IMG/VR virus record: IMGVR_UViG_3300030333_006863
Coordinates: 1-48,490 of that record
Length of the DNA stretch: 48,490 nucleotides
Strand: one strand, 5' to 3'
DNA from: a virus
The position numbers and the translations under genes are program-made. Below are positions 13,392 through 34,539 of the stretch, piece by piece (the stretch's first letter is position 1; every line of letters starts with the position of its first letter). The notes under the pieces are model-generated. The model was not told the origin of the DNA, searched no databases, and saw only the letters and a program-made list of their open reading frames with translations.

Positions 13392-16300
13392 ATGGCTTTA
13401 GATCTATATAAAAAAGAACAAATTCGCTCAATGTTCTTGGCGCAAGGGCGATATGTAACAGATGCTCAAATAGAGGAGTATTACAATAAAGCCCAAGCGA
13501 CTCAAGCAACTCAACCAGAAGAACCAGAGTTATGGGACCCTAAGGAGCCTACACTTGCTTCGGCATACAACGACGAGTCAACTCTCGAGCAAGCGCTTGA
13601 AGCAACAGCTAATCTAGTCTGGGGAGGTCTTGATACTGCCTTACTAGGATTGCCAGGGTTAGCTTGGAAAGGAATAGATAAAGAGAGTTATGAAGCTTCA
13701 ATGGCCGACTTAAATGATAATGCCTTGGCAAGAGTCGGTGGTGGTATCGGTGGTGCTCTTGGATTTTTAGCTCCTATGGGATGGTCTGGTAGACTTCTTA
13801 GCTACGGAGCAAGAGGTTTACGAGGTGCTAGACAAGCTAAGGCTTTAAAGACTGGCGCTACCACAATAGACAAGATAAAGGCGCCTACTACAGAAGCTAT
13901 ACAAACTGCTGCAGGTTCTTCTTTATTCAAGAGCGCTCAAAAAAGAGCTTCTGATCTCGGAACACTTACTAAGGATGAGGCTATTGAAATAGCTAAAAGA
14001 GTATCAGATGATACTATAGGGTTTAGCTTGACTGGTAAAAAATGGTGGCAAAAGGTCTTTCAAGGTGGCCCAGGATATCAAATGGAGCACGGACTTAGTA
14101 GCGTTAATAGATTTAAAGAGTTAATGAAATTCCAAATGTCCGATAGGCTAGCTGCTGAATTAGCAGAAAGTGGTGTAAAATTAACTAATAAGCAGATATT
14201 GAAAATGTCTGATGATCTTGTTGATATGCTTGGAAAAAAATCCTTTAATACTATAGATGCAATGATACAAGGTAGTTATATGGGTCGCATGCATCCTGCT
14301 TTATTTAATTTATTAGGTGGAGTTGTTCAAGAGGGCATTCAGTTTGGTCTAGTGGGTACTGCTATGGATGCAGTTCAATATATAAAAGGGGATTTGGACC
14401 TAAATGAAAGGTCATTCGCAGATAGGGTCTTACATCATGTTGCACTTGGTGGTGTTTTAGGTACTGTAAAATTTATACCTGGAGGAGCAAAAACTCCTAT
14501 ATGGAAGAATTTTGTTGAAGCTTCTTCCTTTATGACTAAAAAATTAAATGATAAAGTTGGAAAAATGGGTCTTGAAGAGTTGAAAGCATTTGGCTTAGTA
14601 AAAATGAGAAATGATAGATCTTCTATTTTCTCAATTACTAAAAATGGAAAAACTATTAATCTCACAAGAAAGGATCTGCGTCCAGAGTCAACTACGATCG
14701 GCAATGAAAATATTCAATCTTTACGAAAGACAATTCAAGATCATAATACAATGTTGGCAAAAAGCTTAAGAGGTCCTTATTGGACCAAATTTGCAGCGAA
14801 TACTCGTAAGGATCTAGTGGGATCCTTTGTTCGTATGTCTGTAGGAGCCGCTTCCATGAATTATGAGGCAATTAATGCTGGTGCTTTTGAGGGCTTGGAG
14901 GATGCTGAGGTTGCGTTTCACCTTGCATTAGGTGCGTTTATGACAAAAAAACATAAACCTCTTTTTAAAGATACAGCTCCTAGACAGGGCATTCATTTTG
15001 GAGAACGTGATTATCATTATTTTTCAGATATGACAGATGTATCTAATGCAATTGCAAAAAATTCAAGATATATTAATAATATAGGTTCATTGATCAAGCA
15101 ATTTGATGGTAACACTTATACTGATTGGGTTAATAAGTATCCGATTAAAGATGTGGAAAGAATGATCAAGGTGTTGAAGGATAACGATATTATATATGAT
15201 AGCCTGGATGGTGAAGTAACAGCAAAACAAATAACACCTGTCCCTCATAGGGAGCTTATGGATCTCCTAGGTCCTATTAGTGCTATTATGACATCTAGAG
15301 GATTAAGAATAAATCCTAATGCTACTAAAGAAATGCAGGTTAAAGTTTTAGATATAATAAAAAATATGACCTCAGAAGAGTTGACATCTGGAGACCATAT
15401 AAGAAAATTAGATTCTAGAGCTAATGTATTACAATCTGTTTTAGCTGGAAGCCAAAGGAGTATTCAAAAATTTCAAAATGATGCTTACAAGCTATTTGAT
15501 GATATGTACAAAATAATCACAGACGGTGAATACTCTATAACTCCAGAAGGTGAAATGTTTGTTTTTAATTTAAAGCATGAACATCTTGACTTGAATGAAC
15601 AACAGAGTCAAACTATTGCTAAGTTTCTTGAGCTAAAAGAAAATTTACGACAAGAAAATATTATCAAGCTTAGAGAGATTGAACATGGAAAAGAAGCGGG
15701 TTTGCAGCATGAAGTAACGATGGAAATGATAAATAAGATGGAGGAATTTATTAATCGTTATGAAAGAAATCTTGGAGCGGAGATATTAGGTGAGGGTTGG
15801 AATGCTCCTGCGGATATTAATGATAAGATGCTTTGGTCTTTAGTTAATGAAGTAAATCATCAAAGAAATGTAGTTAATGTTTTTTCGATTATGAATGGGG
15901 AAGCAATAACTGGGGTTAATGAAGTTGATGCTAAGGAGATACAATCATTGATCAAGCAAGTCTTATCTCATAGAGACAACTTTAATAATGAAATAATGGT
16001 TGATAACGCATTAAAGATAGATCTAATATTCGATGAAGGCATTAGTATTACGCCACAGCAGCAACAAGCATTACAAAGCTTTATACAAGATCTTTGGAGT
16101 ATTAATGCAACAGTTAAGGCTCCTACTGATATTAGAAGAGTTGAGGTCCCAGTATCAAAGGTACTTGCATTAAAAGAAAAATTAGTTAATAACGGTATGC
16201 CAGATCATGAGATTCATATGCTGGATTCTAGAATGGCTAATTGGGTTGAAAAGGCAGTGCAGCACGGTATAGAAAGAGCAACATTAGGTGCTGATATGGA

Positions 16301-19300
16301 GCCTATTATTGGAGTTGCTTTAAAACAGCTAATGAAAAATGGGCTTATACAAACTACTACTGATAGTAAAAATAGAGGTGTTAGGCTAGTTGCGCCTAAT
16401 AAAATAACAGTAGAGCAAGTAGAACGAATTATACCAAATTTAACTCAGAAAGAAAAGCAAGCATATGTAGATGCATATACCAGAGTTATGGACTCGATTG
16501 GGAAAAAATTAGTAGCTAGGCGAGATGATTTTAATATAACAATGCTAACTGCAGAGCAATTATCATCTATTACAACAGCTGATAAGATGTTAGATAAAAA
16601 TCGATATATAACTGATTCTGAAGCAAAAGAAAATATAATACTAGAAGCTATAGAAAGAACCAATGTTCGCAGGAATGTTTTACAGGACCAGCTAAAGGAT
16701 CCTACAATTGAGGATAGTGCAGCTTCTCAAATACGCGATCTATTGAATTTTGAAACTTCAAAGTACCAACAATTAAACGAAATACATCAAGCTTGGAGAG
16801 CAGCATTCGCTGGTGGTCAGGAAATGACTAGAGCTGCAGCATATTTAGAATTTGCAGGTACTACTAGAAATAAAGATGGTAAAAATATATTTGATCTTAT
16901 TAGGGATATTGAAAAATCAGAGGATCCCTTTCATAAATTCACAGAAGATATAAAGCAGCTTCAAAATATTATTGCTGAAAAGGTCAATGAGAGACCGAGT
17001 GGTAAGAGCTGGGACGAGAGAAGGAATGATTTTTTAATAGCTGAAGAACAAAGAGAAATTGAAGGTGTTTTACCAGATAATAGAAAACATACTAATCCCG
17101 ATCTATTTTTTGAAAAATACGGAATAGATAAGAATGACATCTTTTCTGTTGGAGAGAAATATTATAGATCAACATTTGAAACAAACGCGGAAGCTCTGTA
17201 TGAGTTATATAATGAAGTTGTTGTTACTCAAAATCAAAGTAGGGAAGTTTTTATTGATAGAGTTATGGAACTAGCTGGAACTAATAGAGCCGAAGCTTCA
17301 GCTGAGTTAAGAAATGATGTTATGGTTTTAAGCAATCTCATGGATAGAAGGTTTAAGATCAAAAGACTTACAGTTAATCAAACTAGTGGAACTGGAGTAT
17401 TTGAGAATACAGAAATATCCAAAGGCTTTTTAACGGATATATGGACAGAAATATTTAGCGGCATTAACGCTCCAATGCTTATTCTAGATAGCGGATATAC
17501 TAAGAATGGTAAAATACAAAATATCTTTACAAGCCCTAATGGATTAAATGAATTAACTCAAATATTATATGGGAATGAATTTTTTGCTACATTAAATCAG
17601 GGCGAAAATAGATATATAAGTTCATTAAAAAGAGGAACGGCAAAACCAGTTGAACTAGGTCAAGAAGTATGGCATACAGTTGATATAGCTGAAACCTATT
17701 TAAAAGGAGCAATGTATCCTGTTGTTGTCGATGAGAATATAACAGTTCTTATTCCAGAAGCTCATATATCCCATATTAAAAAACCATTTATGAGATGGTT
17801 TGAAAAAATTGAGAAAGATCCGTATACTAAAAAAGCCATAGATAAGTTGCCCCAAGCTAAGGAGCTTATAAATGAGCTAAGGAATTATTATGAGATATTC
17901 AAGAATGGAAACGGGACCCCCGATTCATTTGTTAAGGATGGACAAAGATGGCAAGAAAGTGTACATGATGCAATTTTTACAATTTTTAATTCTATGTATG
18001 GGGAGCGTATTGATGGAGACTGGCTTCAAGATGCTTATACTAATGGCCCTGGTCAAAGAAAACATTTTAAATATAAAAGGTTAGCTCAAAACCAAGGATA
18101 TTCAAGAAATAGTATTGCTCGACGGGAAACTGCTAAGGCTATTTTTGGTGAAGGTACTGGTAGTAGTAAGTATGAAAAAATATTAATTGAAAAATATGCT
18201 GATAGAGAAATAAATAATATTTTCGTCGTGAACGATGGTGTTAATAGTGAAATGGGTTCTGCTGCTAACCAATTAATAACAGATAATAGATCAGTTGCTG
18301 AGCATAGATTGGAAAGAATGTTGGAGAGGGGTGACATTACCAAGGAAGATTATAAAGAGAATTTAAGATTGCTAGAAAATGCATCTTCTATTAACGCTGA
18401 AGCTGTAAATGGAATGACCCCTGTGCGTCGAGAGTATTTAGATTTCCTTTTATTGCAAAATGGTGATGCTGATCTTATAGGAAAATCAGCTGGGCAAAAA
18501 CCAGTGGGATTAACTTCGTATACTGATTCAAAGGGAGTAGTGCATGTTCTTTATAATAAGACTCACTACTTTTATGACTCTAGGCTAGATAAGTTTTTTG
18601 AATTGAATCCAGATATAGATATGATTGCATTTACCAGTGGAGCAAAGAAAGCTAAGATCATTGATCCTAATCAGTCCTTGGAGAATCAATTAAAGCCATA
18701 CGAAGCTATACCTGTCATAGGCGATCTAATTAAAGACAAAGATGGTGTTGAAAGACAGGTTACTATATATGATATGCTTAATTCATTGAATACTAATGAT
18801 TCTAAAAGATCTATAATGCCAGTTAGGGCAGATCAGAGTTTATCAGGTACTGTTTATGGTGAGCATCACAATGCTAAGATATTAAAACAATTTAGTAATT
18901 GGACATCACCAGAGGTTCAAAGAGATCTTTATAAATATGCTCGTCAAGATATGATAGAACAATTTTCTGAAATAAATATGAAGTTTTATAATCCAGAAAA
19001 TATGGCATTGGCATCAGCAGAAGCTAGATCCTTTATGAGAACAGAGGGAAACAAGGATGGAACTATTGCTGTTCAAACTGAAAATGCATCTACCGAGGCT
19101 ATTTGGATAGAGAATAGTGGGATTCCTTTTTCGATATCTGGAAATCTATATGATGCTATAATCAAGAAAAGATATGTTGATCAAGCTGGAATTTTTGATG
19201 GATTTACAGATGCAGGTGGTTCAGCAATATTGCGTGGCAATATGGCAATGGATCTAGATATTCCTGTTTATAAGGGTAATGTTCAGATAAAGTTAGGCGA

Positions 19301-22300
19301 AGCTAATATCTCAGAGGTATATTTAGATGCAAAAATTCATAATATAAGTGATTACGGACCTGCTCAAGGAAAGCCTAGGGGTAGAGAAAAGCGTCATTAT
19401 AAATCTGCAGCTGGAATTACATTAGTAATGGAATTTAGAGGCGATGGCACAGCACCTAGAGATGTATTATACGATCTTAAAAAAGGTAAAATATCAGATC
19501 CGTTAAACCCTAAAGCAAAGTTAGAAGACTATAAGGCTCTGGCTAATGCTGTTGATAAAATATTGCAAGAAATTAACATGGGAGACGGTAGGGTTTCTAC
19601 ATATAGAGATGTTTATAATATCTTAAATGGACCTGGAATGGGTAGACCAGATGGGTCACGTCCAGTAAAGCTTGGTATTATGGGGTTACCTGCTCCTAGA
19701 ACTGGTCCACATGATGCAGTTGTTATGAAGGTAAAGGGCATATTAGATAGAAAAGATGGTGGCATAATGGAGATGAATACCTATGATCTTACCATGAGAG
19801 CACAAAGAGACTTTGATACTGATAAGTTATATTTTTATATGGATACACCATTTTCTGCTATGAGAGAAGCATATAAAATTAACGGTGATGTTAAGGAAGC
19901 AAGAACTACTGAAGCATTTCAAGGTGCAGGGATGCCATTGAATCCATATAATAGACTCAGTATGGAGAATTACACTTCTAATATCAATGAGTATAGGAAG
20001 AAATTTGGTCAAGTTGTTAAGACACAACGCAAAATATCTTTCATGAAGAATTTAATTGATTTAATGGGTACTGAGCCTAATACAAAAAATATACCTATGG
20101 ATAATAAGGGTGATGTAAGATTGGTTGTTGAGCATAACGATTCTGATTTTTTACAAAGGCTTGTTTCACATACTCAAGGCGCAGTAGATATTTATGGAGA
20201 GAATGGCTTGCCACTTTATTTAGCTAATATGAAAGCCTGGCAAAGAGAAATACTATTTGGAAGCGATAAGTTTAAAAATCCAATTTTTAAATTAGTAGAT
20301 AAAAATGGTAATCGATTACCGATGGAAGAGGTGCATAAGCTTATTATTGAAAAAATTATGAATGACTATGGAAGATTGTTAAGCTATGAAGGTAATATAT
20401 GGGAGGCTGGTGAGTCTAAAAGGCCGAGATATAAAGATATGATAACTGGAATGGAATTGTTTAACCAGGAATATAGTCCAGATATTATTAATAGAAATTT
20501 TTATTATTATATAGAAAAGAAATTAAGTACAGAAGCAGCTAATGATTTTTTTGGATTCGCCAAAACAACCGAAAAAGGAATTGATCCATTTTTACAAGGC
20601 ATATCTAAAGCTATGCGTAGTCATACTGATCCATTTCTAAGATCAATGAGGGCTATTACCAGTAAAGATCAGTTTAAAGTTCGTGAAACATTCAGTCCAG
20701 ATGGTGAACATTTTAATGCTACAGTGCAAAAACTACTAGGTCGACATAGAGCAGAAATGCTTGAAACTTTTAGGCTGGAGCCGCAAACTGGTGGAGAGAG
20801 ACCTTTATATCTTGAAGGTCCAAAAGCTGAGACTTTAATTATTGATGAGATGTGGAGAGGTTTTTATAAGGAAAGGAATACTGAAAAGGCTTTAATACAG
20901 GCTAATGCTATAGAACATCAAATAAATTCAATGGAGCGCTTAGTACAAAAAGAAAGTAAAAAACCAGAAGAGATAAGGGATGATGCTTTTATTTCAATGC
21001 AGGAAGAAAATATAGCCATTAAAAGAAAAGCTCTGTCTGTATTGCTTAATAAGCTTACTGTAGAAAAAGATGCTGGATTACCTGGGCAAAAAATGAAGTA
21101 TTACAAAGCAAAAGGTAAAAAAGGTCGTAACTATATTCAAGTAAGTGGTAATAATGTGATGATCAAAGATGCTATAAAAGGCACTGAAAAGAAAGTTCAG
21201 CTTGATAAAAATGGAGGATATATCCTACAACCTAATGAGGTTGCAGTTTATAATCCTATAAAATTAAGAGCTGTGAGGGAGCATGATTTGATTGATGGTG
21301 CTGCTTGGGCAAATACAGTTCTTGGCTACTGGAGCAGGGTCACTGAAGCAGATCTGCCAAAGTTTAGAAAGTATGTAATGGAAACGAAAAATGAAATACA
21401 AAAGCTTATTTCTGAAACAATGGATAATAAGAATTTAAAAGACTGGGAAGCATATGAACATAGGGTCTTTAATGCAATGGAAAGAGGTTTAGAAAATATT
21501 CTAAAAATGACAATGGCAGAACCTGGATGGTCCTTTAAAGACGCTCAGGGTTTTCCAGGCTATGCGAAATTACCAGCAGGTAAAGAATCTTACTTAATAG
21601 ACTTTTTAATGGCTATGCTAACTCCCAAAGGATCTGGCAATCCTAATGAATTTTATTTTTCTCCTAAAACTGGTGGCTTTATGCCAGCTGTTAAAGCTCA
21701 ATCACCTGTTGTTGTTAAAGCTGTAATGCGTATGTTAGATAGTTATACTGTAACACCTCATAAAAATGAATTAATAGCTAAAATGGCACAAATACACAGA
21801 GGGTTTTATGATGCTATTGTCGCTGGGGAAGGCTATCATTCCGCATTTGATAGAATAGCAGAACAAAGTTTCGAAGGCGCATTAGTGAATACAATTAAAA
21901 ATAGAGTAATGCATAGTCCATTTATGCAGCATAAGGATTATAAAAAGTTAACTGAGTGGTTGGAACTAGGAACGGGGATGGAAGCTAAGATGGCTGAACT
22001 AATGCATCAATTATTAGTGGACAATGCTATTATTGACCCAGGTACAGTAATGAGATTAAAAGAAGAGATCATTAATAAACCTGGTGGAGAAGAAGCTTAT
22101 AAAAGCTTATTTACAGTGTCTCGTGGACAACTCTTATTCGATGGTCTCAATACAAAACAATTCAGTACTGGAAAAGGTGAAGGACAATTGGTTGGGGAAT
22201 TGACCATGGAAAGACCCGCAATTAGAAGTGATAGGATTACTGGTGTGGGTCAGAGAAAGAGAGGAACTCAAATTAGTCAATGGCTTCAAGATCAGATTGG

Positions 22301-22328
22301 CTATGAAAACAATGTAAAGTGTGATTAG
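13392..22328 (+). CDS. Giant (2978-residue) internal virion protein; candidate virion RNA polymerase
   Basis: The largest gene of the window. It has no Shine-Dalgarno site and begins 7 bases after the previous stop, so it may be translated by reinitiation. Residues 111-140 (RVGGGIGGALGFLAPMGW and following) and about 300-330 are Gly-rich and hydrophobic, like membrane-active parts of ejection proteins. Most of the rest is helical. Around residues 2075-2165 is a beta-rich stretch with a MGLPAPRTGPHDAVVMK segment and then R-D2140-F-D2142-T-D2144-K, resembling the DFDGD metal-binding loop of two-barrel RNA polymerases and the DxDxD loop of crAss-type virion polymerases. No T7-type polymerase motifs were seen. 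Virion location is well supported by context; polymerase activity is a hypothesis. Confidence 0.6.
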   Translation: MALDLYKKEQIRSMFLAQGRYVTDAQIEEYYNKAQATQATQPEEPELWDPKEPTLASAYNDESTLEQALEATANLVWGGLDTALLGLPGLAWKGIDKESYEASMADLNDNALARVGGGIGGALGFLAPMGWSGRLLSYGARGLRGARQAKALKTGATTIDKIKAPTTEAIQTAAGSSLFKSAQKRASDLGTLTKDEAIEIAKRVSDDTIGFSLTGKKWWQKVFQGGPGYQMEHGLSSVNRFKELMKFQMSDRLAAELAESGVKLTNKQILKMSDDLVDMLGKKSFNTIDAMIQGSYMGRMHPALFNLLGGVVQEGIQFGLVGTAMDAVQYIKGDLDLNERSFADRVLHHVALGGVLGTVKFIPGGAKTPIWKNFVEASSFMTKKLNDKVGKMGLEELKAFGLVKMRNDRSSIFSITKNGKTINLTRKDLRPESTTIGNENIQSLRKTIQDHNTMLAKSLRGPYWTKFAANTRKDLVGSFVRMSVGAASMNYEAINAGAFEGLEDAEVAFHLALGAFMTKKHKPLFKDTAPRQGIHFGERDYHYFSDMTDVSNAIAKNSRYINNIGSLIKQFDGNTYTDWVNKYPIKDVERMIKVLKDNDIIYDSLDGEVTAKQITPVPHRELMDLLGPISAIMTSRGLRINPNATKEMQVKVLDIIKNMTSEELTSGDHIRKLDSRANVLQSVLAGSQRSIQKFQNDAYKLFDDMYKIITDGEYSITPEGEMFVFNLKHEHLDLNEQQSQTIAKFLELKENLRQENIIKLREIEHGKEAGLQHEVTMEMINKMEEFINRYERNLGAEILGEGWNAPADINDKMLWSLVNEVNHQRNVVNVFSIMNGEAITGVNEVDAKEIQSLIKQVLSHRDNFNNEIMVDNALKIDLIFDEGISITPQQQQALQSFIQDLWSINATVKAPTDIRRVEVPVSKVLALKEKLVNNGMPDHEIHMLDSRMANWVEKAVQHGIERATLGADMEPIIGVALKQLMKNGLIQTTTDSKNRGVRLVAPNKITVEQVERIIPNLTQKEKQAYVDAYTRVMDSIGKKLVARRDDFNITMLTAEQLSSITTADKMLDKNRYITDSEAKENIILEAIERTNVRRNVLQDQLKDPTIEDSAASQIRDLLNFETSKYQQLNEIHQAWRAAFAGGQEMTRAAAYLEFAGTTRNKDGKNIFDLIRDIEKSEDPFHKFTEDIKQLQNIIAEKVNERPSGKSWDERRNDFLIAEEQREIEGVLPDNRKHTNPDLFFEKYGIDKNDIFSVGEKYYRSTFETNAEALYELYNEVVVTQNQSREVFIDRVMELAGTNRAEASAELRNDVMVLSNLMDRRFKIKRLTVNQTSGTGVFENTEISKGFLTDIWTEIFSGINAPMLILDSGYTKNGKIQNIFTSPNGLNELTQILYGNEFFATLNQGENRYISSLKRGTAKPVELGQEVWHTVDIAETYLKGAMYPVVVDENITVLIPEAHISHIKKPFMRWFEKIEKDPYTKKAIDKLPQAKELINELRNYYEIFKNGNGTPDSFVKDGQRWQESVHDAIFTIFNSMYGERIDGDWLQDAYTNGPGQRKHFKYKRLAQNQGYSRNSIARRETAKAIFGEGTGSSKYEKILIEKYADREINNIFVVNDGVNSEMGSAANQLITDNRSVAEHRLERMLERGDITKEDYKENLRLLENASSINAEAVNGMTPVRREYLDFLLLQNGDADLIGKSAGQKPVGLTSYTDSKGVVHVLYNKTHYFYDSRLDKFFELNPDIDMIAFTSGAKKAKIIDPNQSLENQLKPYEAIPVIGDLIKDKDGVERQVTIYDMLNSLNTNDSKRSIMPVRADQSLSGTVYGEHHNAKILKQFSNWTSPEVQRDLYKYARQDMIEQFSEINMKFYNPENMALASAEARSFMRTEGNKDGTIAVQTENASTEAIWIENSGIPFSISGNLYDAIIKKRYVDQAGIFDGFTDAGGSAILRGNMAMDLDIPVYKGNVQIKLGEANISEVYLDAKIHNISDYGPAQGKPRGREKRHYKSAAGITLVMEFRGDGTAPRDVLYDLKKGKISDPLNPKAKLEDYKALANAVDKILQEINMGDGRVSTYRDVYNILNGPGMGRPDGSRPVKLGIMGLPAPRTGPHDAVVMKVKGILDRKDGGIMEMNTYDLTMRAQRDFDTDKLYFYMDTPFSAMREAYKINGDVKEARTTEAFQGAGMPLNPYNRLSMENYTSNINEYRKKFGQVVKTQRKISFMKNLIDLMGTEPNTKNIPMDNKGDVRLVVEHNDSDFLQRLVSHTQGAVDIYGENGLPLYLANMKAWQREILFGSDKFKNPIFKLVDKNGNRLPMEEVHKLIIEKIMNDYGRLLSYEGNIWEAGESKRPRYKDMITGMELFNQEYSPDIINRNFYYYIEKKLSTEAANDFFGFAKTTEKGIDPFLQGISKAMRSHTDPFLRSMRAITSKDQFKVRETFSPDGEHFNATVQKLLGRHRAEMLETFRLEPQTGGERPLYLEGPKAETLIIDEMWRGFYKERNTEKALIQANAIEHQINSMERLVQKESKKPEEIRDDAFISMQEENIAIKRKALSVLLNKLTVEKDAGLPGQKMKYYKAKGKKGRNYIQVSGNNVMIKDAIKGTEKKVQLDKNGGYILQPNEVAVYNPIKLRAVREHDLIDGAAWANTVLGYWSRVTEADLPKFRKYVMETKNEIQKLISETMDNKNLKDWEAYEHRVFNAMERGLENILKMTMAEPGWSFKDAQGFPGYAKLPAGKESYLIDFLMAMLTPKGSGNPNEFYFSPKTGGFMPAVKAQSPVVVKAVMRMLDSYTVTPHKNELIAKMAQIHRGFYDAIVAGEGYHSAFDRIAEQSFEGALVNTIKNRVMHSPFMQHKDYKKLTEWLELGTGMEAKMAELMHQLLVDNAIIDPGTVMRLKEEIINKPGGEEAYKSLFTVSRGQLLFDGLNTKQFSTGKGEGQLVGELTMERPAIRSDRITGVGQRKRGTQISQWLQDQIGYENNVKCD

Positions 22329-30868: not shown

Positions 30869-31456
30869 TTAAAATGGCAGATCGTCACCTTTGTCATTAC
30901 TTGTTTCAGTTTGTGATTGAGATACCATTTCTTTAATTTCGTCAACTGAAGCAGTAGTAAAATCATTTTGATCAGACTTCGCTAATACATAATCTTTATA
31001 ATACTTTTCAGCACGACCTTTCCAATATTCTACATCACTAGATGAAAATGTAAGCATTTCACCATTAGTGGTTTCATTAGGTGCAAAATCTCTTAATACA
31101 CGAAGATAACCATCTTCATTTTTGTATATGAAGACATTTAAATCTTTACCAACAAGATTTACTGCACTATCATCATATTGAACTACAGGTTTTTTACCTG
31201 TTGGATCATCTAATACATCTTTAATACCAGCATTTGCAAATCTAAAAACCTGTGCAATTCTAAATTCTTCTTGCGTTGTTTTATTTTTAGCTTCATATAC
31301 TCTAGCATTAAGATTTTCAGGAAATCCATTAAACCAAACATCTATATATCTAGTTCCTTGGTAGTCGCCATACTCTGCTTTATTAACAGTGGCTAAATGC
31401 CAACCTTCAGCAGGTAAATTTTGAGCGTTTCCCAATGTCATTGTTTTAATAGCCAT
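30869..31456 (-). CDS. SSB-like protein with acidic DDLPF tail
   Basis: 195 residues. The N-terminal 130 residues are beta-rich with an OB-fold-like alternation (GWHLATVNKAEYGDYQGTRY, YIDVWFNGF), resembling DUF669-type phage proteins found next to Sak4-like ATPases. The last 20 residues are acidic and end in DDLPF, close to the DDDIPF tip with which bacterial SSB recruits host replication and repair enzymes. It is 8 bases downstream of the Sak4-like gene. Single-strand DNA binding with recruitment of host proteins is the expected role. Confidence 0.7.
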   Translation of the reverse strand: MAIKTMTLGNAQNLPAEGWHLATVNKAEYGDYQGTRYIDVWFNGFPENLNARVYEAKNKTTQEEFRIAQVFRFANAGIKDVLDDPTGKKPVVQYDDSAVNLVGKDLNVFIYKNEDGYLRVLRDFAPNETTNGEMLTFSSSDVEYWKGRAEKYYKDYVLAKSDQNDFTTASVDEIKEMVSQSQTETSNDKGDDLPF

Positions 31457-31464
31457 TGATTCTC

Positions 31465-32238
31465 CTAAGTTGTTTCAGTGTTAGTTTTATTATTTGATAC
31501 AAGAGTTTTAGTTGACATTGTTTTGCCTGTTCCAGGTGAACCAATGATCAATATCTTACATCCATCATATCCTTTTTCTTTTGCTGCATTTAATACTAAG
31601 GTATAATCCTGTGGTATCTCTGCATCAAGAGTGTTTGTGCGATCTTTTGCATGTTCATACATATCATTGTGACGTGTACGCCATACATATCTTTCACTCC
31701 CATCTGGTTCATTAATTGTCTTTGTGTAGAAAACAAAATCAAACCATTTAGATATATCTTCCTTAGTGCTACCATCTATATAAGGTAATACTTTTGATGT
31801 TCCATCAGACATGTCTTTAAACTTTGAATGACAATTCATAATAACAACACCTGGTATTTTTGTTAAATATTCTAGTAGCATATCTAATTTATTTTTGAGC
31901 TTTCCCCAATCCTGCATTTGCATGCGTCCATTTTTATCACATAGGGATCTCATATATTTTTTAGATAGCTCAGAAAATGTATCTAATATTAGAGCATCAA
32001 CTTTAATACCATTCTTTAAAACAGTATCAGTTCTTCTTTCTCTAATTTTTAATCCACCAACATCTTTTTCAATTTCACGCGTTTGTGAAGTATATAACTG
32101 TTTCACAATATCAGTAAAATCATTAAATGATGATGGAGCTAGAACAGGAAATCCAAAAAGTTCTTGGATAGATTCTTCACTACCTAAGGTTTTTGAACCA
32201 CGTTCTAGATCAAACATTAGTATTTTATTACTTTGCAT
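31465..32238 (-). CDS. Sak4/RecA-like ATPase with circularly permuted order
   Basis: 257 residues, GGAG 7 bases before the ATG. The protein begins at NKILMFDLERGSKTL, which in normal Sak4-type recombinases follows the Walker A helix. Then come VDALILDTFSE (Walker B, Asp86) and GVVIMNCHSKF (sensor-like strand). The Walker A motif, KILIIGSPGTGKT, appears only at residues 228-240, followed by just 17 residues. All core elements are present, but in the order beta2...Walker B...Walker A. The upstream sequence has no P-loop in any coding frame, and the start codon has a good ribosome site, so a missing N-terminus does not explain it. Neighbours (SSB-like, Gp157, primase-helicase) fit a single-strand annealing or recombination role. 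Confidence 0.75.
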   Translation of the reverse strand: MQSNKILMFDLERGSKTLGSEESIQELFGFPVLAPSSFNDFTDIVKQLYTSQTREIEKDVGGLKIRERRTDTVLKNGIKVDALILDTFSELSKKYMRSLCDKNGRMQMQDWGKLKNKLDMLLEYLTKIPGVVIMNCHSKFKDMSDGTSKVLPYIDGSTKEDISKWFDFVFYTKTINEPDGSERYVWRTRHNDMYEHAKDRTNTLDAEIPQDYTLVLNAAKEKGYDGCKILIIGSPGTGKTMSTKTLVSNNKTNTETT

Positions 32239-32268
32239 GTTTACTCCTATAGGGTTATTATTAAAGAC

Positions 32269-32534: not shown

Positions 32535-32565
32535 ACTATAGGGGCCATTTCTGACCCCTTATAGT
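32535..32565 (-). promoter_or_regulatory. 3' hairpin after the E1-like gene
   Basis: ACTATAGGGG (32535-32544) pairs with CCCC-T-TATAGT (32555-32565, one bulged T), a 10-bp stem with a 10-base loop starting at the E1 stop codon. No T-run follows on the minus strand, so it is probably an mRNA-end or stability element upstream of the true terminator at 32269. Confidence 0.5.
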
Positions 32566-33455
32566 TATGTAGTAAGGCGACTTTTATCCATAGTAGATAG
32601 TAAGGTCATACTTGGAAAGTTAAAGGTAATTTCAGGATTGACTAAAGAAGTTTCATCAACTATTTTTCGTACTTGATTATTAATAAATGCAGCTGCCATT
32701 GAAGCACAATAGCCTGTACTTCTTGCATTGCATGGTTCATTATCTCCATCTTCATCAGGATACCATGTTTCCATATATTCTGATTTAAATTCTTCTACTC
32801 TATCTCTAAGATCATCTCTGTATCTTTGACCTTCTTCTCTATGCATATCATGAGTCCAATCGTGTTCTTCATATCCTTCGATACCTTCACCTCTATCTCT
32901 TAATTCTGGATTAAAATGAAATATGTTAGATTGAAATGTTTCACTACCCATTCTAGCATCAATTACATATATATTTCTATAATTTCCAGACCTATAATGA
33001 TCATCTTCTCCATTACCAGGTATTCCATACTCCCAATGCTTAAATATTTTATCACAATATTTTTCCATTACTTTAGATCTAGCATTCATGCTATCAACTC
33101 CAATAATTAAAATTTGAGTATCTACTTGACTAGGAATACTTAACCAACTACGACTCCAAGTCATATCAGGCTCATATCTATTAGGTACTTTTTTTATTCT
33201 AATTGCTGGATTAACTTCTGTCATTTGCCTAGCTAACATATTAACCTTACTTTTACCAATATGACTAGTATTGAAATGTTGAACTCCAATATTAACTGTA
33301 GCAACAACATCATTATCATATATAGAAAAAGTTTTACCACCTGCTCGAGCTAGAGCCATGGCAGTATAACTACCAATGGCTCCACACCCTACAATAAGAA
33401 AATGAACTTTATCAATGTTGTAAATGTTTTGAAATCTCGCTGTAAGCTGACTCAT
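32565..33455 (-). CDS. E1-like ubiquitin-activating (ThiF/MoeB) enzyme
   Basis: 296 residues. GCGAIGS at 23-29 is the dinucleotide-binding GxGxxG, followed by IYDNDVV (D47, D49), GVDSMNAR at 119-126 (the Asp and Arg of the adenylation site) and a C-terminal segment with Cys242 and Cys250 (PCNARSTGYCASMAAAF), one of which could form the Ubl thioester. E1-like enzymes adenylate the C-terminal Gly of a Ubl and pass it on. The gene overlaps the JAB gene by 44 bases and has GGAG before its ATG. With the Ubl, E2-like and JAB genes upstream, it completes a conjugation cassette. Acting alone it might have been a thiamine or molybdopterin sulphur-transfer enzyme, but no such pathway genes are present. 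Confidence 0.88.
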   Translation of the reverse strand: MSQLTARFQNIYNIDKVHFLIVGCGAIGSYTAMALARAGGKTFSIYDNDVVATVNIGVQHFNTSHIGKSKVNMLARQMTEVNPAIRIKKVPNRYEPDMTWSRSWLSIPSQVDTQILIIGVDSMNARSKVMEKYCDKIFKHWEYGIPGNGEDDHYRSGNYRNIYVIDARMGSETFQSNIFHFNPELRDRGEGIEGYEEHDWTHDMHREEGQRYRDDLRDRVEEFKSEYMETWYPDEDGDNEPCNARSTGYCASMAAAFINNQVRKIVDETSLVNPEITFNFPSMTLLSTMDKSRLTT

Positions 33456-34539
33456 AATTTACTCCTTCAATCTCTTCTCTTACTAAAAGATCATCGAATC
33501 CACTTAATGTATCCATTTGACTTGGAATATGTAGCTTCATATTATACTGCTGCTGTAATCCTCTAATAAGATCTGTTATGTATTTTAAATGTTCTTCTTC
33601 TGTTTTTGATCCATTTGAAAATGTATGCCAACCTTCAATGGCTTGTTCAATATTTCTAATGATCAATTTTTGTTGTTTTTTCTTTTCATCATCATTATTA
33701 ACTGGTTTTCCTAGAAGATTTCCTACATTATTTAAAGATTTTTCTCTTAAGGGTTTTTTCCCTTTTTGAGATAAACCTCTTTCAACATTTTGTATTTCTT
33801 CTTCTATGATATATTCAGGTATATCTCTATCATCTTTTTTATCATTTAATACTTCTTTAGCGTTAATATTTTCCATTAAAGCTTCTTCAGAAGTATATCC
33901 ACCTAATGGAGCACCATCTCCACTAAGATAACTTGAATAACCTAGTTCATCATCAAATAAACAACCTTGCTGCATTCCTTTGTATTCTTCCCATTTAGTA
34001 AATTTCTTGACAGATACTTTTTCATCAATTTCTTTACTAACATCAGGAGTTTCAATACCATAGTCAATAACTATATTAACATCAAAAGAAACTATTTTAA
34101 TATGATTACCATTGATCTTTACAGGAACTGAATAATCAGCTTTATATTCACCATCATTGTTTACAACAATTGCTAATGATGGACCTTTTTCAGCATACTC
34201 TTTTATTGTAGCTGAATCTGTACCTGACCAAAAAGCTTTCATTGTATGATGTGAATGCCACCAGCAAAACATTAATTTATTTGGTAATAATTCACGATAC
34301 TTTTTTGCAGTTTTATCTACATATTCAACAATAGCTTCTTTATCCAGTGTCGTATTACTACCACTGCATTCTTGAGTCAAGATAGAAGGTGTTCCTACTG
34401 TCATTTTTCCATCATCATCAATAAATACAGGACAATACCCACTTACTTCAGTTTTGTATTTTTCATAAGCAGATCTTGCGTAGACAATCATTTTATTAAA
34501 ATCTTGTCCACTCATATAAACTTTAAGTTTATCTTCCAT
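33412..34539 (-). CDS. JAB/MPN+ metalloprotease (deubiquitinase-like)
   Basis: 375 residues from the ATG at 34539, with GGGAGA upstream and an 11-base overlap with the E2-like gene. The JAMM motif is complete: E31 (EVSG), then H95-S-H97, seven residues, S105-x-x-D108. This is the zinc-dependent isopeptidase site that cleaves ubiquitin-like proteins. Residues 110-375 form a long extension rich in charged residues, with no other catalytic motif, perhaps for binding substrate or other members of the cassette. Expected roles are trimming the Ubl precursor and removing Ubl from targets. Confidence 0.9.
   Translation of the reverse strand: MEDKLKVYMSGQDFNKMIVYARSAYEKYKTEVSGYCPVFIDDDGKMTVGTPSILTQECSGSNTTLDKEAIVEYVDKTAKKYRELLPNKLMFCWWHSHHTMKAFWSGTDSATIKEYAEKGPSLAIVVNNDGEYKADYSVPVKINGNHIKIVSFDVNIVIDYGIETPDVSKEIDEKVSVKKFTKWEEYKGMQQGCLFDDELGYSSYLSGDGAPLGGYTSEEALMENINAKEVLNDKKDDRDIPEYIIEEEIQNVERGLSQKGKKPLREKSLNNVGNLLGKPVNNDDEKKKQQKLIIRNIEQAIEGWHTFSNGSKTEEEHLKYITDLIRGLQQQYNMKLHIPSQMDTLSGFDDLLVREEIEGVNYESAYSEISKHLQH

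Follow-up and report, generated by a model that had tools for sequence, protein, structure and literature searches.

We find that a tailed virus encodes a Sak4 homologue with a circularly permuted chain: a protein of 257 aa, whose gene lies on the minus strand, from 32238 down to 31465 of the window (the whole 48,490-nt stretch of viral DNA analysed here). An earlier note, made from sequence alone and giving no strand, had called 31465–32238 a circularly permuted Sak4/RecA-like ATPase, and this held, being supported by profile matches in swapped order, by conservation of that order among relatives and by the predicted fold. The details behind the claim held as well. Walker B (Asp86) precedes Walker A (residues 233–240), after which only 17 residues remain; the chain opens with KILMFDLE, which in the usual order is the strand found after the Walker A helix; and the start codon has a good ribosome-binding site, as do most relatives. 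What had been called a sensor-like strand is read here as residues 131–137 (VVIMNCH). Coordinates are collected in Table 1.

Table 1. Features of the permuted sak4 gene and its neighbourhood, in window coordinates
Feature	Position	Strand	Basis or remark
Circularly permuted Sak4 gene	31465..32238	-	Pfam AAA_24 5e-19; PHROG_124 (Sak4-like) 2.7e-24; AF2 model
Ribosome-binding site AGGAG, 5 nt before ATG	32244..32248	-	sequence
Glu12 after strand beta2 (FDLE)	32203..32205	-	invariant 88/88
Predicted beta-hairpin, residues 49-74	32014..32094	-	DSSP of AF2 model; gap in canonical Sak4
Walker B strand, residues 81-87, Asp86 in ALILDT	31978..31998	-	Asp86 invariant 88/88
Sensor region His137-Ser-Lys139	31822..31830	-	His137 88/88; residue 139 Lys in 86, Arg in 2
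AKDRT motif, residues 197-201	31636..31650	-	hhalign alignment to Sak4_52A
Junction: former C-terminal helix (IPQDYTLVLNAAKEKG) joined to former N-terminus	31558..31620	-	alignment to canonical termini
Relocated strand beta1, Walker A and helix alpha1, residues 228-247	31498..31557	-	PHROG_124 42-63; AAA_24 3-23
Walker A GSPGTGKT, residues 233-240	31519..31542	-	sequence
SSB-like OB-fold protein, 195 aa, directly downstream	30869..31456	-	AF2 pLDDT 84.6; Foldseek PrgE
Acidic tip DDLPF of SSB-like protein	30872..30886	-	sequence
Primase-DnaB helicase fusion, 598 aa	28759..30555	-	PHROG_16345 1.8e-19; PHROG_19 4.7e-23; DnaB_C 4e-13
ThiF/E1-like protein, upstream	32565..33455	-	ThiF 3.1e-22; context in about half of loci
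JAB/MPN-like protein, overlaps ThiF gene	33412..34590	-	Prok-JAB 6.5e-4, below Pfam's cut-off

The permutation can be read from the order in which parts of the protein match known profiles. Residues 5–219 matched positions 65–257 of PHROG_124 and a C-terminal piece, residues 225–246, matched positions 42–63, which leaves the two pieces adjacent in the profile. With Pfam AAA_24 (5.2e-19), residues 4–201 fell on positions 23–195 and the C-terminal piece, taken alone, placed residues 227–249 on positions 3–23. When the permuted family (88 sequences) was compared by hhalign with six canonical Sak4 proteins, including that of phage 52A, columns 7–219 aligned with canonical 50–252 (E 5e-18) and columns 220–247 with canonical 20–47 (E 7e-7); as both parts are significant and their order is swapped, this is more than chance. 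The result is an almost gapless circular permutation, cut in the loop between helix 1 and strand 2 (alpha1-beta2). The old C-terminal helix (IPQDY...) now continues into the old N-terminal strand (KILIIG), and in several relatives (L034, L083 and L088) no more than a few residues separate the end of alpha1 from the end of the chain. Native and rotated profiles gave similar HMMER scores on canonical Sak4, because HMMER scores the pieces separately; the evidence is the order of the pieces, not their sum. Profile homology, core fold, catalytic motifs, the K-x-R and a neighbouring SSB-like gene all fit membership in Sak4. The one feature that failed is a Walker A near the N-terminus and before Walker B, as found in the canonical members compared, this motif being C-terminal in 88/88 proteins. 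Since only motif order fails and the other testable features are met, we file the family as a permuted, non-canonical branch of Sak4.

The earlier note had asked for homologues with the same order and held that they might instead expose a misassembly. Successive IMG/VR scans yielded 2, 16, 116 and 128 confirmed loci (the sets overlap, and the best 80 were kept in the last two). Among 146 ORFs with a Sak4 match, 145 contained both segments, in permuted order in 145/145 and in canonical order in 0; the remaining one (L018) is truncated by the end of its locus. These loci include some overlapping copies of a single contig. Counted by dataset name in one IMG/VR scan, more than 50 metagenome datasets are represented. 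In all, 88 distinct proteins were found, with pairwise identities of 34–100% (median 56%) and a C-terminal P-loop in every one, which removes the misassembly objection. Motif conservation is equally strict: Asp10, Glu12, Asp86, His137, Lys198 and Arg200, together with the G, P, G, G, K and T of Walker A, are invariant in 88/88. Glu12 occupies the position of the RecA-family catalytic Glu, its role being assigned by homology to RecA Glu96. The tails that follow helix alpha1 are variable and of low complexity, from 0 to about 68 residues long (e.g. L005, L008, L012, L048, L085 and L126), and in several of them an NG(V/A/G) motif recurs close to the end.

The carriers are a group of uncultured tailed viruses. 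A contig of the Flavobacteriaceae MAG UBA6231 encodes a permuted Sak4 that is 38% identical, in the same gene order; this contig is short and the only match in a cellular genome, and it is possibly a misbinned virus. No permuted Sak4 was found among phage isolates or plasmids in the collections searched. Proteins of isolated phages gave only partial matches at about 22–31% identity, without the C-terminal P-loop part, and those whose sequences were read out have the canonical order.

The AF2 model, run as a monomer from 15 alignment rows, had a mean pLDDT of 88.5 and a pTM of 0.86, and as predicted the protein very likely has a RecA-type ATPase core fold without extra domains. The best VIA-align match was phage 52A Sak4 (8rc5; Z 12.9, rmsd 3.0, 166 residues aligned), followed by Rad51 paralogues, Rad51 and Dmc1 (Z about 9–10; about 8–10.4 when RadA is included). 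Residues 3–222 of the model lay on 48–258 of the 8rc5 chain, that is, from just after its P-loop, whose Lys41 and Thr42 come before the aligned range (PMC11846896). At the other end of the model, strand 228–233 and helix 241–246 were confidently formed, with pLDDT 92–94 over 221–240 and 80 over 241–250. Prediction was in line with a Sak4/Rad51 core, and the placement of the P-loop beside Walker B, which the earlier note had made one of its tests, was supported only in part: the strand assignment and the pLDDT of 92–94 argue for docking in the sheet, but this is indirect, with neither coordinates nor a distance to rely on. In 8rc5, Lys229, Arg231 and His232 of the next protomer contact ATPgammaS (PMC11846896). 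We confirmed the identities of these three residues in the phage 52A Sak4 sequence, and Lys198 and Arg200 of the permuted protein align with Lys229 and Arg231. When the model was compared with the PDB by Foldseek, no match fell below E 1e-3, as can happen when a sequential aligner meets a permuted chain; the weak matches, Ras-like and others (TM about 0.1–0.2), were for the same reason dismissed as artefacts. Searching the PDB by sequence yielded nothing meaningful.

The gene directly downstream encodes an SSB-like protein whose best Foldseek match (E 6e-4) was PrgE, an OB-fold ssDNA-binding protein (PMC11137577). Its family is conserved in these viruses; neither Pfam nor NCBIfam gave a match, and the sole PHROG match was marginal (0.036). 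Acidic/aromatic tips similar to its DDLPF are seen in most relatives; others differ (e.g. GMPE, PDPWD), so contact through this tip may vary. For canonical HK620 Sak4, DNA binding and annealing need ATP, and binding to SSB-coated ssDNA requires the SSB tail (PMC5928155). The primase-DnaB fusion is also downstream of the permuted Sak4, in a conserved position, and its family has at least 377 IMG/VR loci; these came from a scan with an aligned query, a scan from a single sequence having found nothing.

Directly upstream of the permuted gene lies a ThiF-JAB pair, which was present in 28/48 permuted loci with at least 3.5 kb of upstream sequence and in 0/15 ERF loci (described below) at the same depth. 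We nevertheless rejected it as a fixed partner, as two ERF loci with less upstream sequence have ThiF. The pair on this virus resembles a ubiquitin-like activation/deconjugation pair. Elsewhere in the window, a 465-aa protein (36705–38102, minus strand) with the stretch MADTSGSM looks by eye like a Ro60/TROVE-vWA protein, and a 2978-aa ORF (13392–22328, plus strand) among the structural genes is possibly a virion-borne giant protein.

What the protein does is suggested by an exchange at its locus. Sister viruses, fetched by a scan with the helicase profile, carry an ERF-superfamily annealase (PF04404, up to 1e-24) exactly in place of the permuted Sak4 (loci among L142–L218, e.g. L146:4677-5189 and L198:4210-4716). 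After deduplication by SSB protein there were 94 permuted-Sak4 loci and 40 ERF loci, with none carrying both, and the slot was never empty where a locus extended 900 bp or more beyond the SSB gene on the upstream side. The helicase-fetched set, selected for neither annealase, contained 11 permuted Sak4 and 41 ERF. On the helicase tree 8 Sak4/ERF changes are required, at least 6 of them forced by well-supported branches; this count rests on a FastTree tree. The slot is therefore an exchangeable annealase slot. ERF did not appear among the Pfam matches of the permuted Sak4 itself, at E values up to 10. Because the permuted Sak4 alternates with ERF in one operon slot, an annealase role is the best explanation, and the protein is probably a working ATP-dependent single-strand annealing protein with an SSB-like partner. 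That activity is inferred, there being no biochemistry on any permuted member.

We propose the following explanation. The ancestral N- and C-termini were fused through a short helix plus linker, and the chain opened anew between alpha1, the Walker A helix, and beta2; by inference, this may have come about when the gene was duplicated in tandem and the two outer halves were then lost. With the fold preserved and no catalytic residue lost, the C-terminal P-loop is expected to pack into the sheet next to Walker B in its own chain. Like canonical Sak4, the protein would bind ATP. On ssDNA covered with the SSB-like protein of the same phage it would assemble as a filament, making use of that protein's acidic tip, and K198/R200 of each protomer would contact the ATP bound by its neighbour. 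Annealing of complementary strands would then serve the virus in recombining and replicating its genome. ATP binding, filament formation and cooperation with the SSB-like protein are inferred here just as annealing is. As a whole we consider it likely that the permuted Sak4 works like canonical Sak4, bearing in mind that biochemistry is lacking and that the AF2 evidence for P-loop docking is indirect.

Several other readings deserve consideration. One is a domain swap, in which residues 228–247 complete the ATP site of a neighbour and thread the filament together. ATP sites of the RecA family already lie between protomers (PMC11846896), and only a short linker (222–227) separates the last core helix from the relocated strand. 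Against this, the AF2 monomer forms strand 228–233 and the helix in the same chain (pLDDT 80–94), and canonical HK620 Sak4 is a monomer in solution (PMC5928155); we regard a swap as unlikely. Also improbable is a structural or regulatory subunit like the Rad51 paralogues, which would bind ATP without annealing of its own, for example as a mediator of a host recombinase. Rad51 paralogues are indeed close structural matches, and HK620 Sak4 by itself is a poor annealase (PMC5928155), but the strict alternation with ERF-family annealases points to the annealase role itself. A bolder suggestion, which we hold doubtful, is that the permutation is not neutral: the freed P-loop and fused termini would alter protomer contacts, possibly with a swapped P-loop, and so evade host or satellite factors directed against canonical Sak4 filaments. 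Stl2 of SaPI2 is such a factor, recognising canonical Sak4 filaments.

A circularly permuted GTPase of the YjeQ/YlqF kind, rather than a RecA-like protein, is suggested by an NKLD string at 116–119, which has the form of the G4 motif for GTP specificity (NKxD), and by the Ras-like GTPases at the top of the Foldseek list. Those matches are weak (TM about 0.1–0.2, E at least 0.0097), NKLD lies inside helix 108–126 and is not kept (MQLD in L017, SGLD in L088), the Pfam and PHROG matches are to AAA_24/Sak4 (1e-19 to 1e-24), and VIA-align gives Sak4 and Rad51, which together all but exclude this reading. An assembly artefact, a gene cut in two where a contig or genome ends, or a degenerate remnant can be virtually dismissed too: misassembly could in principle permute one contig, but no tool result favours it, the 88 distinct proteins come from independent contigs in which neighbouring genes and start sites are conserved, and the catalytic residues are invariant.

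The permuted Sak4 annealase thus remains our preferred reading. We found no earlier report of a permuted Sak4 or RecA/Rad51-type recombinase in the literature searched, where coverage was partial and absence is unproven, and the earlier note had likewise known of no permuted Sak4; in the most relevant papers where 'permut' occurs together with 'Sak4', it means something else. The family is likely to escape annotation pipelines, because profile searches label the protein an ordinary Sak4 with a P-loop that is seemingly missing or detached. A natural permuted family that keeps all catalytic residues shows that the alpha1-beta2 loop of the RecA core can accommodate new termini, and provides a ready test of the role of chain connectivity in filament assembly. 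The exchange of permuted Sak4 and ERF in one slot is genomic evidence that annealases are swapped as interchangeable parts, and the family offers a new set of annealing enzymes, annealing itself being inferred.

Among known systems, the closest are the Sak4 proteins of HK620 and phage 52A. The permuted protein shares with them a RecA core only, with Walker A and B, and a sak4 gene directly upstream of a phage ssb; with Sak4_52A it shares a K-x-R toward the neighbour's ATP, and it is homologous to the Sak4 family (PHROG_124, Pfam AAA_24) over its whole length. Unlike canonical Sak4, it has a C-terminal Walker A, fused old termini, new termini between alpha1 and beta2, and an additional beta-hairpin at 49–74. 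The GTPases YjeQ/RsgA, YlqF/RbgA and YqeH are P-loop NTPases whose motif order was also changed by circular permutation; they differ from the permuted Sak4 in P-loop class, cut site and function, and have no profile match in common with it. In sister viruses the ERF annealase (PF04404), of a superfamily grouped with the Rad52-like superfamily (PMC8093625), sits in exactly this place in the operon, ahead of the SSB-like gene and the primase-helicase, yet has no detected sequence similarity to the permuted Sak4. Finally, the Rad51 paralogues, Rad51/Dmc1 and RadA are its structural neighbours; these proteins have the canonical order, and most carry additional N-terminal domains.
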